Positions 1-15,799 of a stretch of 20,275 nucleotides of DNA are shown piece by piece; within the stretch, counting starts at the first letter, position 1; each line of letters starts with the position of its first letter. Position numbers and translations under genes: made by a program. Origin of the DNA: a virus. A model generated the notes under the pieces. It ran no database searches, had not been told where the DNA came from, and saw nothing but the letters and a program-made list of their open reading frames with translations. Location of the stretch: the IMG/VR virus record IMGVR_UViG_3300009172_000095, positions 1-20,275 of that record; one strand, 5' to 3'.

Positions 1-461
1 GTAGTGTTATTGCCGAATCAAGAACTGCATTAGCAAAAGAAGCATTAGAAAAAAATGCTTCTCACTTGTTGTGGCTCGACAGTGATATGCACTTTCCGCC
101 ATCTGTTTTCGAAACTCTGTTATCACACAACAAAGACATTGTCGCAGGCCAATACAGTACTAGGTATTCACCGTATCAAACTGTTGCATTTACCGATCCT
201 GATGATATACAAAAAAGACTCAATGAAAACAATGGGTTACACCAGGTATGGGCAGTAGGTATGGGATGTATGTTGGTTAATGCAGATGTGTATAACAACT
301 TGCCAAAGCCGTGGTTTGACCACGAATATAACAAACGATTAGATACTTTTAGCGGAGAGGATATATACTTTTGTAATCAAGCAATGCACCACGGTTACGA
401 AGTATGGATAGATGCAGGTATCAAACTTGCACATTATGGAACAAAGGCAAATATACTATGA
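1..461 (+). CDS. GT-A glycosyltransferase, 3' part (5' end outside window)
   Basis: The reading frame is open from base 3, so the start codon lies to the left and only about 152 C-terminal residues are seen. The segment LLWLDSDMHFPP has the hydrophobic strand followed by a DxD motif (DSD) that binds the metal and nucleotide-sugar in GT-A transferases. It is followed by a VAGQYSTRYS strand, a GMGCMLVNADV core strand, and an acidic GEDIYFCNQAMHHGYEVWIDAG segment with a late histidine (AHYG) typical of the C-terminal half of GT-A folds. Phage members of this type usually modify phage or host surface sugars or modified DNA bases; the substrate cannot be read here. The TGA stop overlaps the ATG of the next gene (ATGA at 458-461), which indicates translational coupling to another glycosyltransferase-like gene. 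Family-level call good; acceptor unknown. Confidence 0.75.
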   Translation, partial: SVIAESRTALAKEALEKNASHLLWLDSDMHFPPSVFETLLSHNKDIVAGQYSTRYSPYQTVAFTDPDDIQKRLNENNGLHQVWAVGMGCMLVNADVYNNLPKPWFDHEYNKRLDTFSGEDIYFCNQAMHHGYEVWIDAGIKLAHYGTKANIL

Positions 462-3091
462 AAGCTATTGACAGATTTGAAAGACTAAATGTACAGACAA
501 CAACTATGTTTCCTGGACAAGATTCTTTAAAGAATCATATTTTAAACAAAGCAGATATTTTGTATGTTGATAATCCTACAGACTTTTCTGTATTAGAAAC
601 ATATACAGGAAACTCTAAGTTTGTATGGTTGGTTGATAAAAATATTACAACGTATGCAAGTTTTCCTTGGTATTACAAACCTAGCAACAACAGCATTTAT
701 AAGTTTCCTTATGTATTTGATAAAAGCCGTAAAGTAAAAACATTTGATAGTGTAGTACTTGTTCCAGTAGACGCACACACAGTAGAATATAATATTGTAC
801 ACGAAAACTATATTGCCGGACATTATGATCCGTACAATGGTAAAGACAAGTTTGATATTTTTTATATTGGTAAAGATAAAACAGTATTAGAAAAACTAGA
901 AGCTCGAGGGTTTGACTTACAAGTAGTCAAAACATATGAACAAGCACAGCAACAAAGTTTTACAGATATGTTCTGGATTGTTTACGACGATACAGATGTA
1001 AGAGATACTTTCAAGTTTAGTTATAAACCAGACGAATGGAGTTATGACATACCACATGTGTTTGGCAATGGAGACATTGATACACTAGACGGTATTGTAC
1101 TTTGTCCAAAGTCTTATAATATTACCGATCGTGAAATTACTCATCGCTTTTTTGCTAACAAAAAAGAAGTTAGGATTATGGCAAGTAATCCACGCAAGTA
1201 CGATGTATACACTGTTAAAAACTACAGTGATTATTTGTATGCAATGGAAAATACTACTACAGATATGTTCTGGGGATACTCAGAGCAAGTTGTTATTGAA
1301 GAAGATTTTAAGTTTGATTATTATATTAGTCATCACAGCAGCGACAGAAAAATCAATCATGCGTGGCTAAATGGAAACAAATATGATGGGGTATTTTTGT
1401 TTAGTAAGTATGTTAAACTAAGCAAAGAAGAAATAGAACTTAAAGAACCAACTGAAAAAATTGATCACGATATTGTTGCAAGTAATCCGCATGACTTTGA
1501 AACATTTGCTGTAGACACATATGAACAATATGTTAATGCATTTAATCATTGCCAAACTGATATGTTTTGGTTAGTACCTAGTGATGTAGAAGTGTGTGAT
1601 AATTTTAAATGGAGCAAATACTTTCATGAACAAAGCACTTTTGACAGATCAACAAATCATGTTTTCTTAAATGGCGAACACTATGACGGTATTGCACTTT
1701 TAACTAAAACTGCTAAAATATCCGAAAAAGAGTTTGAACATAGATTTTATGTAAACAAAAAAGAGCATAACGTGGTTGCAAGTAATCCTAAAAAATATAA
1801 TAAGTTTACTATTAACAACTACGAAGATTATACAGAAGCATTATATAATACCGATACTGAAATGTTTTGGGGTGTGCCAGCTGATATTGAAGTAGATAAA
1901 GACTTTGACTTTGATTTGTACTTTAGTCATCAGAACTCCTACGATAGAAATATTAATCATGTTTTCCTAAATGATGAAAACTATGATGGTATTGTATTGT
2001 ATAGTAAAAATGTATTAGTTAGTGAAAAAGAAATTGAGCATAGATTTCTTATTAAGAAAAAAGAATACAATATTGTAGCAAGTACTCCAAAGCCTTATCC
2101 TATATACACTGTAAATAGTTACAAAGATTATTTAGAAGCTAAGGAATCTTGTAATGTTGATATGTTTTGGATGGTAAATCATTCATTTTTACCCGTCTAT
2201 GATTTTAACTGGAACTTTTATATTAGTCATCACAATCAATATGAAAGAAAAGTTAATCACGTTTGGAAAAATGGAGATTTTTATGACGGTATTGCATTAG
2301 TTAGTAAACACTTAAATATTAGTCAGCGTGAAATTGATTATAGATTCTTTGTTACTAAAAAAGAATACGACGAAGTTGGCAGTATGCCTAACCCGTATGA
2401 TATTGTGTTTATTAGTAACGGCGAAGCTAATGCCGAAGAAAACTTTGACGATTTATCTTTTAGATTTCCAAGAGCTAAACGTGTAATGGATATTAAAGGA
2501 ATTCATGCTGCTCACAAACGTGCAGCAGAACTAGTAGAAACAGAAATGTTTTGGGTAGTTGACGGGGATGCAAACGTTATTGATAATTTTGACTTTAGTT
2601 ATTATATTCCGGCATACGACATTGATGGCAAAGATACTGTTTATGTTTGGAGAAGTTTAAATCCTGTTAACAAGCTAGTATACGGATATGGCGGCGTAAA
2701 ACTACTACCTACTATGTTAACACGAAACTTAGATGAACGCACAACAGATATGACTACTAGTATTAGTGATAAGTTTAAAGGCATTAACGAAATGAGTAAT
2801 ACTACTATCTTTAATACAGATGCGTTTAGTGCCTGGCGCAGCGGATTTAGAGAATGTGCTAAGTTAGCATCAAAAATTATTGCTAGACAGCAAGACGACG
2901 AAACAGATTTTAGATTAGACGCATGGTGTACTAGAGGGTCAGCAGAGTCATTTGGAGATGCAACTATTGCTGGTGCAATCGCAGGCAGAGCATTTGGAAC
3001 TGAAAATAAAGATAATCTAACCGAGCTTGCAAAGATTAATGATTTTGAATGGTTGCATGAAACGTTTACGCAATCATATCCACAAGTCTAA
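458..3091 (+). CDS. Multi-repeat glycosyltransferase-like protein (877 aa)
   Basis: The start is taken at the ATG overlapping the upstream stop (ATGA). An earlier in-frame ATG at 404 would lie inside the upstream gene. The protein is built of serial copies of a module of about 100 residues, anchored by a T(D/E)MFW motif at residues 169, 268, 367, 467 and 567 and again at 695 in a longer C-terminal domain. A decayed copy (KFVWLVD) is at residue 54. Each copy also has a (V/A)(W/F)xNGxxYDG(I/V) element, an EIEHRF-like element and VASNP. Only the last domain (about 640-877) looks like a whole transferase: DIVFISNGE strand, then WVVDGDANV with DGD at 702-704 in the DxD position, then VWRSLNPVN and YGYGGVKL. 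The other copies have D-D, E-Q, D-E or no acidic pair there. I infer one active C-terminal GT-A-like domain with a string of degenerate domains that might bind sugar or space the enzyme. No signal peptide or membrane segment is evident. The substrate is unknown. Confidence 0.7.
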   Translation: MKAIDRFERLNVQTTTMFPGQDSLKNHILNKADILYVDNPTDFSVLETYTGNSKFVWLVDKNITTYASFPWYYKPSNNSIYKFPYVFDKSRKVKTFDSVVLVPVDAHTVEYNIVHENYIAGHYDPYNGKDKFDIFYIGKDKTVLEKLEARGFDLQVVKTYEQAQQQSFTDMFWIVYDDTDVRDTFKFSYKPDEWSYDIPHVFGNGDIDTLDGIVLCPKSYNITDREITHRFFANKKEVRIMASNPRKYDVYTVKNYSDYLYAMENTTTDMFWGYSEQVVIEEDFKFDYYISHHSSDRKINHAWLNGNKYDGVFLFSKYVKLSKEEIELKEPTEKIDHDIVASNPHDFETFAVDTYEQYVNAFNHCQTDMFWLVPSDVEVCDNFKWSKYFHEQSTFDRSTNHVFLNGEHYDGIALLTKTAKISEKEFEHRFYVNKKEHNVVASNPKKYNKFTINNYEDYTEALYNTDTEMFWGVPADIEVDKDFDFDLYFSHQNSYDRNINHVFLNDENYDGIVLYSKNVLVSEKEIEHRFLIKKKEYNIVASTPKPYPIYTVNSYKDYLEAKESCNVDMFWMVNHSFLPVYDFNWNFYISHHNQYERKVNHVWKNGDFYDGIALVSKHLNISQREIDYRFFVTKKEYDEVGSMPNPYDIVFISNGEANAEENFDDLSFRFPRAKRVMDIKGIHAAHKRAAELVETEMFWVVDGDANVIDNFDFSYYIPAYDIDGKDTVYVWRSLNPVNKLVYGYGGVKLLPTMLTRNLDERTTDMTTSISDKFKGINEMSNTTIFNTDAFSAWRSGFRECAKLASKIIARQQDDETDFRLDAWCTRGSAESFGDATIAGAIAGRAFGTENKDNLTELAKINDFEWLHETFTQSYPQV
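1178..2374 (+). repeat. Four in-frame tandem repeats of about 99-100 codons
   Basis: Within the 877-aa protein, residues 241-639 form four units with nearly constant length: the TDMFW-type anchor recurs at nucleotides 1259, 1556, 1856 and 2156 (steps of 297, 300 and 300). A fifth, less similar unit precedes them (anchor at 962, also 297 bases earlier). Similarity is clear in the protein but the DNA copies have diverged, so this is an old amplification kept in frame, not a recent duplication or assembly artefact. Confidence 0.85.
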
Positions 3092-3500
3092 TAACCGTAT
3101 CGAGTTTTTTTTGATTAGTTTTACTTCTTAGTGTATTGTTTAACCCGTTGTGCAACGGTTTAGGCCATGCGCTAAATGTTACCCACGCATATCCATTGTG
3201 TTCGTCATTTAGTTTAGGAATAAACTCATTGTTTATTACACACAAATATGTATGGAAACTAAAGTGACTATCACTGCTTATAAAAGTTTCTAGTGGAATA
3301 GTTTTTTTAATATTAGAAACTACTCCAATTTCTTCTTCAATTTCTCTTTTTAAGCCTTCCCACGGAGTTTCGGCTCCTTCGTTTGTACCACCGACTAATC
3401 CCCAAAGATTTTTTGTTTTTCCTTTGGTACGATGTAAAAAGAGAAATCTTTTTGTTTCAAGACTGTAAAATAGAGCACCACTACAAATTATTTTATTCAT
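3066..3500 (-). CDS. Nudix hydrolase (144 aa)
   Basis: A full Nudix box is visible: G-x5-E-x7-REIEEEIGV, matching GX5EX7REUXEEXGU, in the context WGLVGGTNEGAETPWEGLK. The family hydrolyses a nucleoside diphosphate linked to another group (NDP-sugars, dNTPs, NADH, capped RNA); the box positions the catalytic glutamates and Mg2+. The substrate cannot be assigned: the residues diagnostic of GDP-mannose hydrolases are not clearly present. I chose the ATG at 3498-3500 (MNKIICSGALFY), which begins the usual first strand; a longer reading would run into gp15. It lies 13 bases after the gp15 stop and has no obvious Shine-Dalgarno, so it is probably read from the gp14-gp15 transcript. Its 3' end overlaps the convergent repeat-protein gene by 26 bases. 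Neighbouring glycosyltransferases make an NDP-sugar substrate possible, as inference only. Confidence 0.88.
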   Translation of the reverse strand: MNKIICSGALFYSLETKRFLFLHRTKGKTKNLWGLVGGTNEGAETPWEGLKREIEEEIGVVSNIKKTIPLETFISSDSHFSFHTYLCVINNEFIPKLNDEHNGYAWVTFSAWPKPLHNGLNNTLRSKTNQKKLDTVIRLVDMIA

Positions 3501-3513
3501 ACAAATACTTATT

Positions 3514-5217
3514 TTAAAGTGTAATAGTCCAAGTGCCTCGTGGATAATATCCGTCAACTGCACTCTGCCAGTAGTAGTTATTCCAATAAAACTGTTGTCC
3601 TGTGGTTATATTAGTAACATATGTAGTTGTAGTATTTTCACTTGAGTTCCATATATTAACCCATTTAGATCCGTTCCATTCAGCAATGTCATTTGCATCT
3701 GCTGAAAAGTCAGTGTTGTCTGCATTTTTCCATGCAGCAGGGCCCTGTTCGTTGAGATTTAAAACATAAGAAACTACATCGTCTACATCATACTTTGTAG
3801 TTAAGTTTAATACAAACTTGTCGTTGACGTTTGATTTTGTTGCAGCAACAGGCACCCCGTTAACAAATACCTGGAATGTAGTTACACGTTCGTCGCCTTC
3901 TCTGCCTGCTAAATCACTGCTGCTAATAATATAATCTATGTCAGTATCTATTCTTGTACTGCTGGCAGTTGCTTTAAAGGTACGTTCAACTTTGTAACCA
4001 ATAGGGCCAAGCATTAGTATTCTTACGCCCGAAGCCTTAACAGTGTTAGGATTAAATGTTATTGGATCAACAATATAGTCTATTGTACCATCTGATTTAG
4101 TTGGTCCGACTAAAATAGTATTTGCTGGCAATGTATCCTCGTCCCAATCAATGATCATATTCATTGTGTCGTTTTCGTATACATTAAATGTACCAACTAT
4201 CTCGCCGGTCATTTCTGCTCTACGTAATCTAATCTGACTTATGCCGGGCTGGTACTGGGATGGCAATTCAGCTTCGAGTATATTCTTCCAACTAATATCT
4301 CCAACTCGTAGACTTTTATTCTTTGCTAGTTGAGCAGTGTCGTTGTTAACAATTAAATCAAAGTTGCGATAACTTACAATCAATGGGTTTGATAAGTTAA
4401 GCGATCCATTTCCAATATTTTGAGTACTTGTAATACCAATACTACCGTCATTAACAACAGTTCCATCTGGCAATACTGTAACTCCGCTTGCTGCTCCTGC
4501 GTCTCCGTTAGTGGATGGATTAAATCCTTCTAAGCTAATAGTACCTGCGTCTTGATTGTAAACACTTGTAATAATATCTGTGATAATACCAAGTTTTTTA
4601 ACTTTACTTGGCGGAGATATATAAATGGGCGCAGTAAATCCTAATGTAGCAACATCAATATCGTCCTGTGTTCCTACTGGTACTGTTCTACTACTAAAGT
4701 TAATATCTTCCAAATATAACACACTTAAACTTGTCCAGTCGACATAGTTGTCAGACGTTTGAAATTCTAAGTCTGGATTAAACAGCATAAAGATTTGTTC
4801 TAATATTTGCAGTTTTTGATCAGTACTTGTTGACCAAACATCAACATTAACACTTAATGTGTAAGGAGTTGGGTGCAATCTTTCAACTGTGTATCCTTTA
4901 GCTTGACTTGCTGTGTAACTACTTGTCCCTGCGTCGAACGTTTTTTCTCTAAGATTAATCTTACTTACATAACTACTGTCGCTTAGTCTAGCTCTGTCCA
5001 TTTGTAAGCTAGTAATATATACACCCATTCTTGGCGCACTTGGTAGTTTGTTGTCACTGTTTTCTCTAATAATACTAGCAACCTGTCTTGTAATATCACC
5101 ATACAACACCGGAACTACTTTAATATCGCCTTCGCCGTCGCGATAGCTAAAATTACTAAATGCTCTTACAATCTGTGTAATGTATCTACGTATCTGTCCA
5201 TCATAGAAAAATTGCAT
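3514..5217 (-). CDS. 15: gp15-like tail sheath stabiliser with long C-terminal extension (567 aa)
   Basis: Residues 1 to about 210 align by eye with T4 gp15, the ring that caps the tail tube and sheath and joins the tail to the head. Matches include FYDGQIRRYITQIVRAFSNF near the N-terminus (T4 FYNSSFRRYATLMGDLFSNI), PRMGVYITSLQMDRAR, the PTPYTLSVNVDVWS strand, and LQILEQIFMLFNPDLEF (T4 FQIVEQILPYFQPHF), ending in the IYISPPSK strand. T4 gp15 is 272 aa; here about 350 more residues follow, rich in beta-forming and Ser/Thr/Asn/Asp residues and ending with aromatic WNGSKWV, FYWNNYYW and PRGTW motifs. The extension may decorate the neck. It follows gp14 with a TAATG one-base overlap, so the two are translationally coupled. 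Identity of the core is well supported; the role of the extension is unknown. Confidence 0.86.
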   Translation of the reverse strand: MQFFYDGQIRRYITQIVRAFSNFSYRDGEGDIKVVPVLYGDITRQVASIIRENSDNKLPSAPRMGVYITSLQMDRARLSDSSYVSKINLREKTFDAGTSSYTASQAKGYTVERLHPTPYTLSVNVDVWSTSTDQKLQILEQIFMLFNPDLEFQTSDNYVDWTSLSVLYLEDINFSSRTVPVGTQDDIDVATLGFTAPIYISPPSKVKKLGIITDIITSVYNQDAGTISLEGFNPSTNGDAGAASGVTVLPDGTVVNDGSIGITSTQNIGNGSLNLSNPLIVSYRNFDLIVNNDTAQLAKNKSLRVGDISWKNILEAELPSQYQPGISQIRLRRAEMTGEIVGTFNVYENDTMNMIIDWDEDTLPANTILVGPTKSDGTIDYIVDPITFNPNTVKASGVRILMLGPIGYKVERTFKATASSTRIDTDIDYIISSSDLAGREGDERVTTFQVFVNGVPVAATKSNVNDKFVLNLTTKYDVDDVVSYVLNLNEQGPAAWKNADNTDFSADANDIAEWNGSKWVNIWNSSENTTTTYVTNITTGQQFYWNNYYWQSAVDGYYPRGTWTITL

Positions 5218-6371
5218 TAGTCACCTGCCTTTGCTCTTAGAGCTTTACTCAGAGCCTGTCTTTCAACAACTTCTTCTCCGCTAATACTATTTACTGTTGT
5301 GTTGTTTATAAACGTGCCTTTTAGAGTATCGCGACCACTTGTTTGTGTAAGTGTGGTTCTTACTGAATCTTCTATTTTGCGCCAACTATTTCCATCGTAT
5401 CTAAACAATCTATTAGGAGACAAATCAATTCTTAAAAAGTAATCGCCTGTATCTGGTCCGCCTGGAAAACTAATGCCAGTACCATACGGTGCACCATTAG
5501 GCGGTATTCCGTCACCGACAAGATATCCTTGATATCCGTTTCCATCAGGAGTAACAAAAACTGTATCTGCTGTTATTCCGCCGTCTGCTAATAATGTATT
5601 ATAGTCAGTACTTACTATTTGAACCTCGCCTACATCATTAACTTGTAATGTGTAAAACTGTATAGTTTCGTATCCGCTCAGTGGAACGTCAACTTCGGCT
5701 TGTGCAATAATAGCATTGTTTATTTCTATCTCTTTATCATATGTACTAAGCACATCTCTAAGAGTTGTGTCACTGCCTTCTTCTGCTGGCAAGTCTAGTA
5801 TATCTTTGTATTCTTGTGAATCAAGTATTTGCTTACTTCTTACTCTGTACAAATGTGGATACCAAGTCTGACTGAATCCTTCTGCTGCTCTTGTTACTTC
5901 GTCAACAACATAAAAACGTTTTAGTGCAACATTATAATCGTTAGCAGCGTACTCGTCCTTCATGTGCGGGAGTTCTATTACATCACCTGGCATAATCTTT
6001 CTGCCAAGTTGTTTAACACTACTGTTAATGTGTATTGTCATAAACAAAGTATCATTTTGTAAAAATAACCCAAACTGACTTAGATCAAAATCCTGATCGC
6101 TTACATTGTAATGACCTCGAATAGTATAAATGTCTTCATCGTATTTGCGATCTCTATTTTCTAAAAATAACAAGTCTTGAATGTTAGTTTCTTTAACAAC
6201 ATCATAAACGGGTTGTTCGGCAGTTGCATCTTCTGCTAACGTAGTCTTTGGACCAAGATATTTGTGTATATTAAAATCAGTCCCTCCAACGGTAAACTGC
6301 TCGAGGACAACACCATCGATGAAACTGTAATCTTTTGTTTTTTCTGGTCTATATAAACTTAGTCTTGGCAT
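5217..6371 (-). CDS. 14: gp14-like neck protein (384 aa)
   Basis: This is the likely homologue of T4 gp14, which with gp13 forms the neck sealing the portal after packaging. Shared features are the N-terminal block with FTVGGTDFNIHKYLGP, an ENRDRKYDEDIYTIRGHY region, DFDLSQFGLFLQNDTLFMTI, the IMPGDVIELPH strand (T4 EPKEGDLIYFPM) and a following FYVVDEV strand. T4 gp14 is 256 aa. The extra C-terminal third includes a GDYFLRID...NRLFRYDGNSW hairpin-like motif at 309-330, a type seen in several tail and neck proteins. I start at the ATG at 6369-6371 (MPRLSLYRPEK) rather than 6404, because the late-promoter box lies between them and would otherwise sit inside the coding region. The ATG follows the box by 5 bases without a Shine-Dalgarno. 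The next gene, gp15, overlaps by one base. Confidence 0.82.
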   Translation of the reverse strand: MPRLSLYRPEKTKDYSFIDGVVLEQFTVGGTDFNIHKYLGPKTTLAEDATAEQPVYDVVKETNIQDLLFLENRDRKYDEDIYTIRGHYNVSDQDFDLSQFGLFLQNDTLFMTIHINSSVKQLGRKIMPGDVIELPHMKDEYAANDYNVALKRFYVVDEVTRAAEGFSQTWYPHLYRVRSKQILDSQEYKDILDLPAEEGSDTTLRDVLSTYDKEIEINNAIIAQAEVDVPLSGYETIQFYTLQVNDVGEVQIVSTDYNTLLADGGITADTVFVTPDGNGYQGYLVGDGIPPNGAPYGTGISFPGGPDTGDYFLRIDLSPNRLFRYDGNSWRKIEDSVRTTLTQTSGRDTLKGTFINNTTVNSISGEEVVERQALSKALRAKAGD

Positions 6372-6376
6372 ATGTA

Positions 6377-6384
6377 TATTTAGC
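6377..6384 (-). promoter_or_regulatory. T4-type late promoter box (GCTAAATA) for gp14-gp15-Nudix
   Basis: Read on the minus strand this is GCTAAATA, ending 5 bases before the gp14 ATG. It matches the TATAAATA core recognised by the phage late sigma factor (gp55 in T4). Transcription would start at or very near the ATG, giving a leaderless or nearly leaderless message. It shares base 6384 with the plus-strand box for gp13. Confidence 0.6.
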
Positions 6385-6391
6385 ATAAATA
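6384..6391 (+). promoter_or_regulatory. T4-type late promoter box (CATAAATA) for gp13
   Basis: CATAAATA differs from the T4 late core TATAAATA at one base and lies 16 bases before the gp13 ATG, with a Shine-Dalgarno (GTGGAG, 6395-6400) in between. It abuts the minus-strand box for gp14. Confidence 0.65.
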
Positions 6392-6407
6392 CTTGTGGAG
6401 ACAAACA

Positions 6408-7784: not shown

Positions 7785-10700
7785 ATGGCATTAACTTCCC
7801 CAGGTGTATCAGTTTCAGTTATTGATGAGAGTTTTTATACTCCAGCTGAACCAGGTACAGTACCTATTATTTTTGTCGCAACTGGCGAAAACAAAACAAA
7901 CGGCGCAGGAACTGGTACAGCACCAGGTACTTTAAAAGCCAACGCAGGCAAACCATACCTACTAACATCACAACGCGATCTAGTAGATACATTTGGCGAT
8001 CCGTTATTTTATACAGATGCAAATAACAATCCTATTCATGGCGGCGAGCAAAATGAATACGGCCTACAAGCAGCATATTCGTATTTGGGTGTAAGTAACA
8101 GAGCCTATGTTGTAAGAGCAGATACAGATCTTACATCACTAACAGCAAGTTCAACTCCAACAACAGCAAACCCAACAAACGGAACTTACTGGTTAGATAC
8201 GCAAACTTCAAAGTACGGTATATTTGAATGGAACGCAACCGCACAGTCAGCAACTAATACAGCTGGTCAAACATTTACAAATAAAGCAATTACTGTTATT
8301 ACAGATGCAACACGCACAACAGGATCAACACCGTATACTCCAAAAGCAGCAGTTGGCGCTGTTGGCGATTATGCAATCGTGGCAGTTTCAACTATTATCC
8401 GCACATGGTATAAAAATACTGCTGGTACTTGGGTACAAGTAGGTAGTGCAGATTGGAAAGACAGCTGGCCTTCAGTAACAGGTACAGCAGCTTCAGTAAC
8501 TTATACAATTGGTGAAACTATTACAGAATCAGAGTCTGGTAGTACAGTTGCATTAACTGGAACAACTCTTACACAAACTGTTGCTGATTTCAATGCAGCA
8601 ATAACCGGTGTAGGTATTAGAGCAGCAGCAGTAGACGGCAAATTGGCTATCTTTAACGATGGTTCAACACATGCAAGTATTACACTAGGCGGCGCAGCTC
8701 TAGTAGATGCAGGCATTACTGCTGGCACATATTATCCACCAGCATTGCAAGCAACTGCCCACACAAGTGTTCCAGAATGGAAAACAGCAGATACGACATC
8801 ACGTCCAACTGGTAGTATTTGGGTTAAAACAACTACACCAAACAGTGGTGCAGATTGGAAAGCTAAAGTTTGGAATAGTTCAACAGAACTATGGGATGCA
8901 GCAAGTGCTCCAATATATACTTCAAATCACGCAGCGTTATTTGGTTTAGATAAAACAGCAGGCGGCACAAACTTGTCAACTGCAAACTTGTATGTACAAA
9001 CAAATACAACAGAATCTGCAACAAATGTAGCTAACTTTACTATTTACAAACGTAATGCTATAGGTGCAACAACTGTTACTAGTGCAGCGATTACTGCTAC
9101 AACATTTACAGCAGGCAGTCATGCTTTTACTATCCAAGAAACAACAAAAGGTAGTGCAACATTAAGTACAGTAGCAAACATTTCGTTTACAGCAGCTGGC
9201 ACAACAGCCGATGCAGATACTTTTGCAGCAGCAGTTAATACAGCAGGCTTAATTAATGTTACTGCTAGTGTAGATTCAAGTAATAAAATTATTATTACAC
9301 ATGCACTTGGCGGCGATATTAGATTTGATGATGGAACTGGTACACCAGTAGCAGATGCATTTACCCCATGGAACTATACAACCAACGCAGGGACCACAAA
9401 CTTTTATGATTCACCAACTGGTGCAGCAACAAACTATATTGCAACACTTTGGAAAGAACTAACATATACAGCAAGTGGTGATGCTCCAACTGCTCTTGCA
9501 GTACAAGGCGCACTATGGTATAGTAGTGTTATTGACGAAGTTGATGTTATGGTTCACGACGGTATTAAGTGGGTTGGATATCTACACGCTGACAGTCCAT
9601 ATACTGGAACAGATCCAGCAGGGCCTATTGTTTCAGCAACAGCACCAGTAGACGGCGGCCGTTCGGATGCAGGAGACTTGGTAACAGGCGATCTTTGGAT
9701 TAGTACAGCAAATCTTGAGTCTTTCCCAACAATGTATCGTTGGAATAATACATTAAATGTTTGGACAGCACTAGATACAACAGACCAAACTACTGAAAAT
9801 GGTGTTTTGTTTGCAGATGCACGTTACGGTACAAGTGGCGGAACAGCAACAACTGCTCCAGCAGGAACTATTGCAGAACTACTAGAAAGTAACTATGTAG
9901 ATACTGACGCTCCTGATCCAGCATTATATCCAAAAGGTATGTTGCTTTGGAACACACGTAGAAGCGGATTTAATGTTAAGCGTTTTGAACGTAACTACAT
10001 AGACTTAGCAGCAGACAACGTTAGAATGGGCGATGTAAGTATGGCAGCATATTATCCACATCGTTGGGTAACTGAGTCAGCAAACAATGCAGACGGTTCG
10101 GGTAGCTTTGGTCGCAACGCACAACGTAAAGTTGTTGTACAAGCACTACAAGCAATGGTTAACAGTAACCAAGACATCCGCGATGATGAATCGAGAATCT
10201 TTAACTTGATTACTACTCCAGGATATCCAGAGCTAATCGGCGAAATGATTACACTAAACTACGACAGAGGCCTAACAGCATTTGTTATTGGTGATAGTCC
10301 AATGCGTTTGGCATCTAATGCAACTTCGATCAACGAATGGGCAACTAACGTTGCAACTGTAGTTGAAGATAACGATGATGGACTTGTTAGTAGAGATGAG
10401 TATTTGGGTGTTTACTATCCAAGTGGTTTCACAAGTGATAACGCAGGCAACAACGTTGTTGTTCCAGCAAGTCACATGGTACTACGTACATACGCACTAA
10501 ACGACCAAGTTGCATATCCATGGTTTGCACCAGCAGGTACAAGACGCGGTGGAGTTACTAACGCAACTGCAACTGGTTATATCAACAGTGAAGGTGAATT
10601 TGTAAGTATTGCACTTAACGAAGGACAGCGTGACACATTGTATCAAAACAACGTTAACCCGATTACTTTCCTAACAGGAGCAGGGCTAGTTGTATTTGGA

Positions 10701-14448: not shown

Positions 14449-14931
14449 ATGAAAAACTTTGCAGATTATTTAACTGAGAGTAAAAAAACATATGATTTTA
14501 AAATTGGTGTGGCTGGTCCGCTGCCAGAAGGTTTTGAAGATCAGCTTGAAACCAGTTTACAAAAATACGGTTGCTCACAAGTAGCATCTGGAAAAACAAC
14601 TCCGATACAAGAACGTCCTTTAGACTTTCCACAACTTGAAAACATGGAAGCTACTTATTTTGAAATAAGTTGTGTGTATCCAACAACTGTTCAAGTATTA
14701 CAAGAATATATTGGACAATGTTGCGGCGTTCCGCAAAGTCATATTATTGTACGTAGTCCTAATGAACCACAAGAAGAATATCAAGAAGAAGCAACTGAGA
14801 CAGTATATGTTGCAAAGTTAACTGTCGAAGAGTTGGAGGGCAAAAGTGCTCAAGATTCAGTTGGCGGAACTCGAGTAATGAATCTGTTAAAAGAACTTGA
14901 AGTTGCCCAAAAAGAAAAGTCAGGAAACTAA
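14449..14931 (+). CDS. Conserved phage protein of unknown function (160 aa)
   Basis: I recognise this as a type of protein common in marine T4-like phages but know no function. It begins MKNFADYLTESKKTYDFKIGVAG; the F-x-x-Y-L-x-E opening is shared with many phage virion and core proteins. The body reads as an alpha-beta protein, with strands KIGVAGPL, ATYFEISCVYPTT, SHIIVRSP and ETVYVAKLTVEEL and helices GFEDQLETSLQKYG and TVQVLQEYIGQCCG, compatible with a ferredoxin-like fold. The C-terminal end (RVMNLLKELEVAQKEKSGN) is a helix. Cysteines occur at about 42, 75, 90 and 91. It is read from its own late promoter with AGGA 7 bases before the ATG; the next gene starts 1 base after its stop. A virion assembly role is inferred from context between the terminase genes. 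Confidence 0.8.
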   Translation: MKNFADYLTESKKTYDFKIGVAGPLPEGFEDQLETSLQKYGCSQVASGKTTPIQERPLDFPQLENMEATYFEISCVYPTTVQVLQEYIGQCCGVPQSHIIVRSPNEPQEEYQEEATETVYVAKLTVEELEGKSAQDSVGGTRVMNLLKELEVAQKEKSGN

Positions 14932-14932
14932 A

Positions 14933-15799
14933 ATGAAAAAAGTAAATGAAGCAAACATGAATATTAGTGTTAATGGCGACAGTGCAGCAGAAGTATCGGA
15001 ACTACTACGTATTATGCAACTTGCAGGAACTGGCGCAAAAGAAGTTGGCATCAATGATATTAATCAAAAAATGCTACCAAGTCCAGACAGCGATTCAGGA
15101 TCGTGTGAAATCTGCGGTGGAGACCACGGCCCGGCCGACCTAATGGCAGGCTGCGGCAGTAAGTCACCAAGTGAAAAAATGGGTGATACAATACGTATGA
15201 TTAGCGCAGGCGAAGAAGCATACGAAGAAGTCGACGATGGCGGATTTGGCAGTGCTACTACAGAACCAGAAGAACTGCCAGGCGATGTTAGTGACATGAT
15301 TCCGGCAGGCGACGACTTGCACAAAGAAAAAGGGTCGTATCCAGCAACAGCAGGCGGCGACAATCCAATGAATACCAAAGAAAGTATTCATGCAATACTT
15401 ACAAAAGCACTTGCTGAAAAAAAATCTAATAAAAAACCAGACAATGACGGCGACGGTGTTCCACCGTGGGCAGACAAAGATGATAACGATCCAGAAGTTG
15501 GCGCTGATGATGAAAAAGCAGACGAGTCAATTGTAGAGCGCGATATTGAATCTAACTTTGAAAACAAGAACAAAGACATCAACAACTTAGGTCGTAAAAT
15601 GATGGATATGAGTACAAAAATGAGTGGCACAGATGATACTAGCTTGATGATGGGAAATGCACTTTCGAGACTAGGCGAAGTACTAGCTGAGTTCGGCGGC
15701 AACGGATTTGCTGCTAACAACATGAATGATGTTATTAAAAAATCAGCATTGACCAAAGAGATTGTGCAAATGCTAATGAAAAAAGCAAAAGCAGCATAA
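14933..15799 (+). CDS. Conserved acidic protein with Cys cluster and Asp-rich loop (288 aa)
   Basis: No known function, but similar proteins occur in marine T4-like phages. The N-terminus (NEANMNISVNGDSAAEVSELLRIMQLAG) resembles a strand-helix unit. Residues 58-74 hold C-E-I-C-G-G-D-H...C, a Cys2-His-Cys pattern that could bind zinc. The middle is acidic and Gly-rich, probably disordered. DNDGDGVPPWADKDDND at 170-186 resembles a calcium-binding DxDxDG loop of the thrombospondin type 3 kind. The C-terminal 80 residues are helical and end in VIKKSALTKEIVQMLMKKAKAA. I start at the ATG at 14933, with AGGA at 14922-14925 eight bases upstream; a TTG start 12 codons earlier would overlap the preceding gene. 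It follows the 160-aa gene with a single-base gap and ends in a terminator. Role unknown; an assembly or scaffold function is possible. Confidence 0.8.
   Translation: MKKVNEANMNISVNGDSAAEVSELLRIMQLAGTGAKEVGINDINQKMLPSPDSDSGSCEICGGDHGPADLMAGCGSKSPSEKMGDTIRMISAGEEAYEEVDDGGFGSATTEPEELPGDVSDMIPAGDDLHKEKGSYPATAGGDNPMNTKESIHAILTKALAEKKSNKKPDNDGDGVPPWADKDDNDPEVGADDEKADESIVERDIESNFENKNKDINNLGRKMMDMSTKMSGTDDTSLMMGNALSRLGEVLAEFGGNGFAANNMNDVIKKSALTKEIVQMLMKKAKAA

Follow-up and report, generated by a model that had tools for sequence, protein, structure and literature searches.

A predicted phage glycosyltransferase domain on a variable-length chain of its own degenerate copies

Why would a phage gene carry one glycosyltransferase-like domain behind a series of partial copies of it? 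The question arises from a 20,275-bp linear IMG/VR virus record, analysed here over its whole length (the window), in which genes of a T4-like contractile-tailed phage are recognisable: sheath stabiliser, neck, tail sheath, tube, head closure and a gp17-type terminase. (The window has no T4-type late promoter motif TATAAATA, and further conserved genes of an undescribed kind lie at 14449-15799.) An earlier note on this DNA had pointed to an open reading frame for an 877-aa protein and had taken the product for one live catalytic domain with a chain of pseudo-enzyme modules kept for binding or spacing. The reading frame is present, and we consider it likely that it encodes a single predicted live transferase domain whose own degenerate copies form a non-catalytic arm of variable length. 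The relevant features are the following:

3..461, + strand: 3' part of the gene before it, for a 194-aa glycosyltransferase, truncated by the edge of the window (Pfam Anp1, E 5.5e-9)
458..3091, + strand: 877-aa multi-module protein, residues 1-877 (open reading frame; ATGA overlap with the upstream gene)
548..814, + strand: degenerate N-terminal module, residues 31-119 (hhalign probability 86, E 5e-6)
911..1177, + strand: module u0, residues 152-240, Y-D-D in the DxD register (HMM E 9e-16)
1187..1477, + strand: module u1, residues 244-340, S-E-Q (HMM E 5e-36)
1484..1777, + strand: module u2, residues 343-440, P-S-D (HMM E 4e-38)
1784..2077, + strand: module u3, residues 443-540, P-A-D (HMM E 3e-41)
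2084..2377, + strand: module u4, residues 543-640, N-H-S (HMM E 3e-37)
2369..3088, + strand: predicted C-terminal GT-A-type glycosyltransferase domain, residues 638-877 (AlphaFold2 pLDDT 92.3, pTM 0.87; Foldseek matches in the PDB)
2561..2569, + strand: DxD motif D702-G703-D704 (conservation in 145 terminal domains)
2699..2701, + strand: Lys748 (invariant alignment column K111 of the terminal domains; counts in the module column)
2849..2863, + strand: R798-E799-x-x-K802, at the start of the C-terminal helices (invariant alignment columns R161, E162 and K165)

The modules and the terminal domain

The anchor motif recurs at residues 169, 268, 367, 467, 567 (VDMFW) and 695 (TEMFW), exactly as had been noted before, with spacings of 99, 99, 100 and 100 residues and then of 128 before the terminal copy, the last being lengthened by an additional beta-alpha unit that precedes the motif in the terminal domain. 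The serial layout described earlier, with five internal modules of about 100 aa and a terminal copy, is real, but it had overlooked one more, degenerate module at about residues 31-119, which is matched by the profile of all modules (hhalign probability 86, E 5e-6, against E 0.1-0.6 for 5 shuffles). There are therefore six upstream modules and a terminal domain.

An HMM built from internal modules of the family only finds the five modules at 152-640 with E values of 9e-16 to 3e-41, and scores the C-terminal copy of the same protein at E 0.0034 (Z = 1e6). When a profile of 462 modules is aligned with one of 139 terminal domains, hhalign gives a probability of 97.8 and E 8e-13, whereas five column-shuffled control profiles give E 0.1-0.7. 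Searched against other phage records, the model of the terminal domain likewise matches internal modules (E 5.6e-5 to 1.3e-10). The repeats of the 877-aa protein are thus confirmed to be far beyond chance, and the modules to be homologous to the terminal domain.

What kind of domain is the terminal copy? Modelled alone by AlphaFold with 67 sequences, it is predicted with confidence (pLDDT 92.3, pTM 0.87), and D702-G703-D704 lies at the end of strand 697-702, the position after the relevant core strand that a metal- and nucleotide-sugar-binding DxD motif occupies. A Foldseek search of the PDB gives 42 matches at E<=0.001, of which 41 are GT-A glycosyltransferases and one is HddC, a related nucleotidyltransferase. 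The predicted structure and its Foldseek matches agree with the GT-A nature that the earlier note had suspected for the terminal domain. The matches, which include RmlT, K4CP, SunS, WrtF, ppGalNAcT and ArnC, have E values of 1e-4 to 1e-3 and TM-scores below 0.5, so that the domain would be a divergent GT-A member. In the model of the whole protein (27-sequence family alignment; mean pLDDT 85.7, pTM 0.58), each module has the same order of elements; the shape of the arm is not fixed by this model, given its pTM. The reading of single modules as truncated GT-A domains rests on sequence homology and on secondary structure that matches in the model of the whole protein.

The sequence family libraries searched did not recognise the terminal domain. 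Pfam Glycos_transf_2 (PF00535, GT2) matches nothing in the window at any E value up to 10 (controls were positive in 14 of 14 genomes), and Pfam Anp1 matches the upstream gene but not the 877-aa protein. Searches by tblastn with the whole protein, the terminal domain and stand-alone relatives found nothing significant in 50,697 annotated phage records. As modelled, then, the terminal domain represents a divergent GT-A family that escapes the sequence libraries. A match to Pfam DUF5001 (E 0.0014, below the cut-off) and sequence matches in the PDB to fumarate reductase and TFAM (E > 0.1) were put down to chance, and hhalign did not link the terminal domain to the family of the upstream Anp1-like glycosyltransferase beyond a short motif.

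Loss of the active site and growth of the array

How much of an active site is left in the modules? Among the relatives in IMG/VR, the first Asp of the DxD motif is found in 0 of 462 upstream modules, which have P, Y, N, S and other residues instead, and the second Asp is kept in 303 (66%), so that the modules may still bind a ligand weakly. The terminal domains have D (141 of 145) or E (4 of 145) at the first position and an Asp at the second without exception (145 of 145). The earlier claim that the last copy alone has an intact motif stands for the DGD at 702-704; the readings then given for the other copies are corrected here to Y-D-D, S-E-Q, P-S-D, P-A-D and N-H-S, the first Asp being always lost in the five internal modules and the second kept in three. 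Lys748 is likewise invariant in terminal domains, and the aligned module position has V, A, F or a similar hydrophobic residue, or another residue. R798, E799 and K802, which are also invariant in terminal domains and absent from the modules, are candidate catalytic or acceptor residues to judge by their conservation.

The modules stop where the long strand of the terminal domain (773-783) stops and thus lack its whole C-terminal helical half, as was anticipated when the last copy was described as carrying a longer C-terminal part. They also lack the first strand-helix of the terminal domain, and each therefore corresponds to about residues 676-783 of it.

The terminal domain is found in hundreds of uncultured marine phage contigs (at least 600 matches), and the variation in copy number for which a survey of relatives had been proposed is considerable, from 0 to 9 upstream modules. 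By HMM detection, distinct complete proteins have 0 (30 proteins, single-domain paralogues included), 1 (12), 2 (8), 3 (11), 4 (1), 5 (51), 6 (1), 7 (1), 8 (5) or 9 (4) upstream modules; these counts come from short-read assemblies, in which the collapse of repeats could bias some. In a tree of terminal domains (a quick tree with some long branches and an unsure root), module-free forms are basal and long arrays originate in separate clades. The first module (u0) forms one clade in 29 of the 29 proteins sampled, with support 1.0, the last module mostly forms its own, and the extra modules of long forms cluster together in the middle of the array. The modules have positional identity, and extra ones are inserted in the middle. 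One such step can be seen between L057 and L051, which differ by the presence or absence of exactly one 104-residue module and are otherwise mostly about 94-99% identical (lower beside the indel).

Synonymous divergence between the window (458-3088) and L003:4456-7086 climbs along the gene from 0.02 in u0 to 1.3 in u4, which suggests homologous recombination inside the array between close relatives. Two further variants, L055:5992-9372, which is identical to L051 except that 69 aa are missing inside one module, and L044:5944-8627, in which the frame is broken between array and enzyme, may be assembly errors or real, and were left out of the evidence.

Some relatives are built differently. In one family clade there is a C-terminal extension of about 215 aa of the SCP2 sterol-transfer type (L102:6748-7389 and L118:6985-7626; PF02036, E 2.4e-8 and 1.7e-7). 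A lipid-binding domain of this kind is unusual on a phage glycosyltransferase; long C-terminal extensions are also present in L104, L111, L124 and L125. Stand-alone terminal domains occur with a paralogue of about 300 aa that has the motif (T)VDGDN (L126:1808-2725 and 7995-8672; L127:7091-8702), and in L157:3029-4681 the two are fused into a 551-aa protein.

The modules have dN/dS values mostly of 0.02-0.13, compared with 0.04-0.11 for the terminal domain. Purifying selection on them is as strong as on the enzyme domain, and they are therefore retained for a function. Since they are homologous to an active-type domain, lack its catalytic residues and are kept by selection, the modules qualify as putative pseudo-enzymes. 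The split in the DxD motif, the homology of the modules, their variation in number and the selection on them all argue for the architecture originally proposed, with one live-type catalytic domain and a pseudo-enzyme chain.

The acceptor and the role of the arm

How might such a protein work? Residues ~638-877 would bind a nucleotide-sugar and metal through D702 and D704 and transfer the sugar to an acceptor by means of the C-terminal helical half, with R798, E799 and K802 as the invariant candidates. The six upstream modules would have arisen by serial duplication of the part of this domain that binds the nucleotide, which runs from the strand-helix-strand containing the former DxD as far as the long strand; they would have lost metal binding and would be without the acceptor half. 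The arm that they form would hold a long or repetitive acceptor, either a glycan chain or the adjacent tail fibre, near the single active site. Both catalysis by the terminal domain and a binding or spacing role of the arm are what we infer, and the variable length of the chain among phages suggests that dead enzyme copies became such an arm. That the dead half-GT-A modules make a length-tunable glycan- or fibre-binding arm, their number fitted to the spacing or length of the acceptor, and thus a pseudo-enzyme ruler on its parent enzyme, is a more speculative idea and a rather doubtful one.

The surroundings of the gene bear on its acceptor. Its ATG overlaps the stop of the upstream Anp1-like gene (ATGA, 458-461), the intact 194-aa form of which is seen in L003 and L046. 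The same overlap exists in most of the 34 contigs with both glycosyltransferase genes, and for this reason 458 is the likely start; the multi-module gene is translationally coupled to the Anp1-like gene. In all contigs of the window's many-module clade that reach far enough, the order is S74 tail fibre, a 125-aa gene, the Anp1-like glycosyltransferase, the multi-module gene, and then a convergent NUDIX gene with tail and neck genes. The fibre ends in a Peptidase_S74 intramolecular chaperone and is 219-1588 aa long (often cut by the contig end). The 125-aa gene always sits between fibre and glycosyltransferase pair (L046:5041-5415), its product having no Pfam match, and a NUDIX hydrolase and two tail or virion genes (3069-6404, - strand, in the window) are convergent with the glycosyltransferase operon in all relatives. 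Relatives with few modules or none are found in islands rich in radical-SAM/SPASM, sugar-nucleotide dehydrogenase-like and other glycosyltransferase genes.

Two acceptors are weighed equally, the adjacent fibre and a host surface glycan. The enzyme may glycosylate a component of its own phage's virion, the tail fibre or another, with the arm docked along the fibre; this is a tenable reading, short of probable. It accords with two features of every informative contig of the clade, the position of the multi-module gene near the S74 fibre and its coupling to a second glycosyltransferase, and self-glycosylating phages are known, since the mycobacteriophages Che8, Corndog and Myrna glycosylate their own virions (PMC12363180). 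However, the length of the fibre is not related to the number of modules in the loci seen, and the relatives with fewer modules, in their radical-SAM islands, mostly have no visible fibre within 4 kb.

For the other acceptor the case is just as tentative: surface glycans of the host, such as the O-chain, would be modified during infection, superinfection would be blocked, and the modules would bind the polymer. Stand-alone relatives have radical-SAM and sugar-nucleotide dehydrogenase-like genes around them, and some members carry the C-terminal SCP2 lipid-binding domain. The locus also resembles the host-recognition cluster of pelagimyophages, where the stretch between VrlC and gp14 contains fibres, glycosyltransferases and radical-SAM genes, which are proposed to modify the host O-chain (PMC7029224). 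On the other hand, the many-module clade is strictly paired with fibre and tail genes, not with genes for sugar synthesis.

Could the protein be no enzyme at all? As a virion component, an adhesin or fibre accessory, it would use its GT-A folds for glycan binding only, and its place among the structural genes, immediately behind the one for the fibre, as well as its long and repetitive architecture would suit such a role. Yet the DxD motif and the catalytic half are near-completely retained, and in the terminal domain only; sparing of one site would not be expected if binding were everything, which disfavours this explanation, and single-domain relatives stand alone among metabolic genes. We therefore regard it as unlikely. 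A neutral reading, with the modules as leftovers of duplication that are tolerated upstream of the enzyme, would account for the whole-module steps in copy number but is highly improbable, given purifying selection as strong as that on the enzyme and the conserved positions of the first and last modules.

With a predicted live transferase domain on an arm of its own copies as the preferred reading, the relatives make a graded series from a stand-alone enzyme to one with 1 to 9 dead modules, in which an enzyme domain has been turned into a repeat array with one catalytic-looking copy. The terminal domain is widespread in marine phage contigs, yet unrecognised by the family libraries, solved structures and annotated phage genomes searched. 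Because short and long variants exist in nature, the repurposing of pseudo-enzymes and the role of array length are directly testable.

Comparison with known systems

The earlier note knew of no description of a poly-pseudo-glycosyltransferase architecture, and literature searches likewise turned up none. The top Foldseek match of the whole model is the chondroitin polymerase K4CP (PDB 2z86/2z87), which also has more than one GT-A domain per chain. In K4CP both are full catalytic domains, whereas the 877-aa protein has one full domain and several dead partial modules, and the two have no detectable sequence relation. GT2/GT27-like enzymes (RmlT, SunS/ThuS, WrtF, ppGalNAcT) share the predicted fold of the terminal domain, with the DxD at the expected place, but the TM-score is below 0.5, there is no Pfam GT2 match, and those enzymes have no module array. 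We know of no module array in the virion glycosyltransferases of mycobacteriophages either, although these too are phage glycosyltransferases and that of Che8 is among the viral matches in Foldseek. Che8 gp110 and its like differ further in acting on capsid and tail tube (PMC12363180).

The pelagimyophage cluster is similar in having fibres, glycosyltransferases and radical-SAM genes near a neck gene; its glycosyltransferases are mainly GT8, and the parts of the report consulted mention no module arrays (PMC7029224). The loci described here have the S74 fibre upstream and neck and tail genes downstream, VrlC and gp14 themselves not being identified by name. A duplicated GT-A domain is also present in the DPM synthases of Borg archaeal elements, 5 of 7 such proteins having an extra GT-A copy without the metal motif, but this is a single extra domain and there are no half-domain arrays (PMC12660748). 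Two proteins of uncultured Caudovirales phages in BFVD, A0A6J5LK21 (804 aa) and A0A6J5L5L5 (1076 aa), match the whole model with E 4e-37 and 6e-35 and are probably, on this structural likeness, members of the multi-module family, deposited as uncharacterised and without a described architecture. The enzyme thus belongs to a familiar type; what is new is its array of dead half-domains in variable number.
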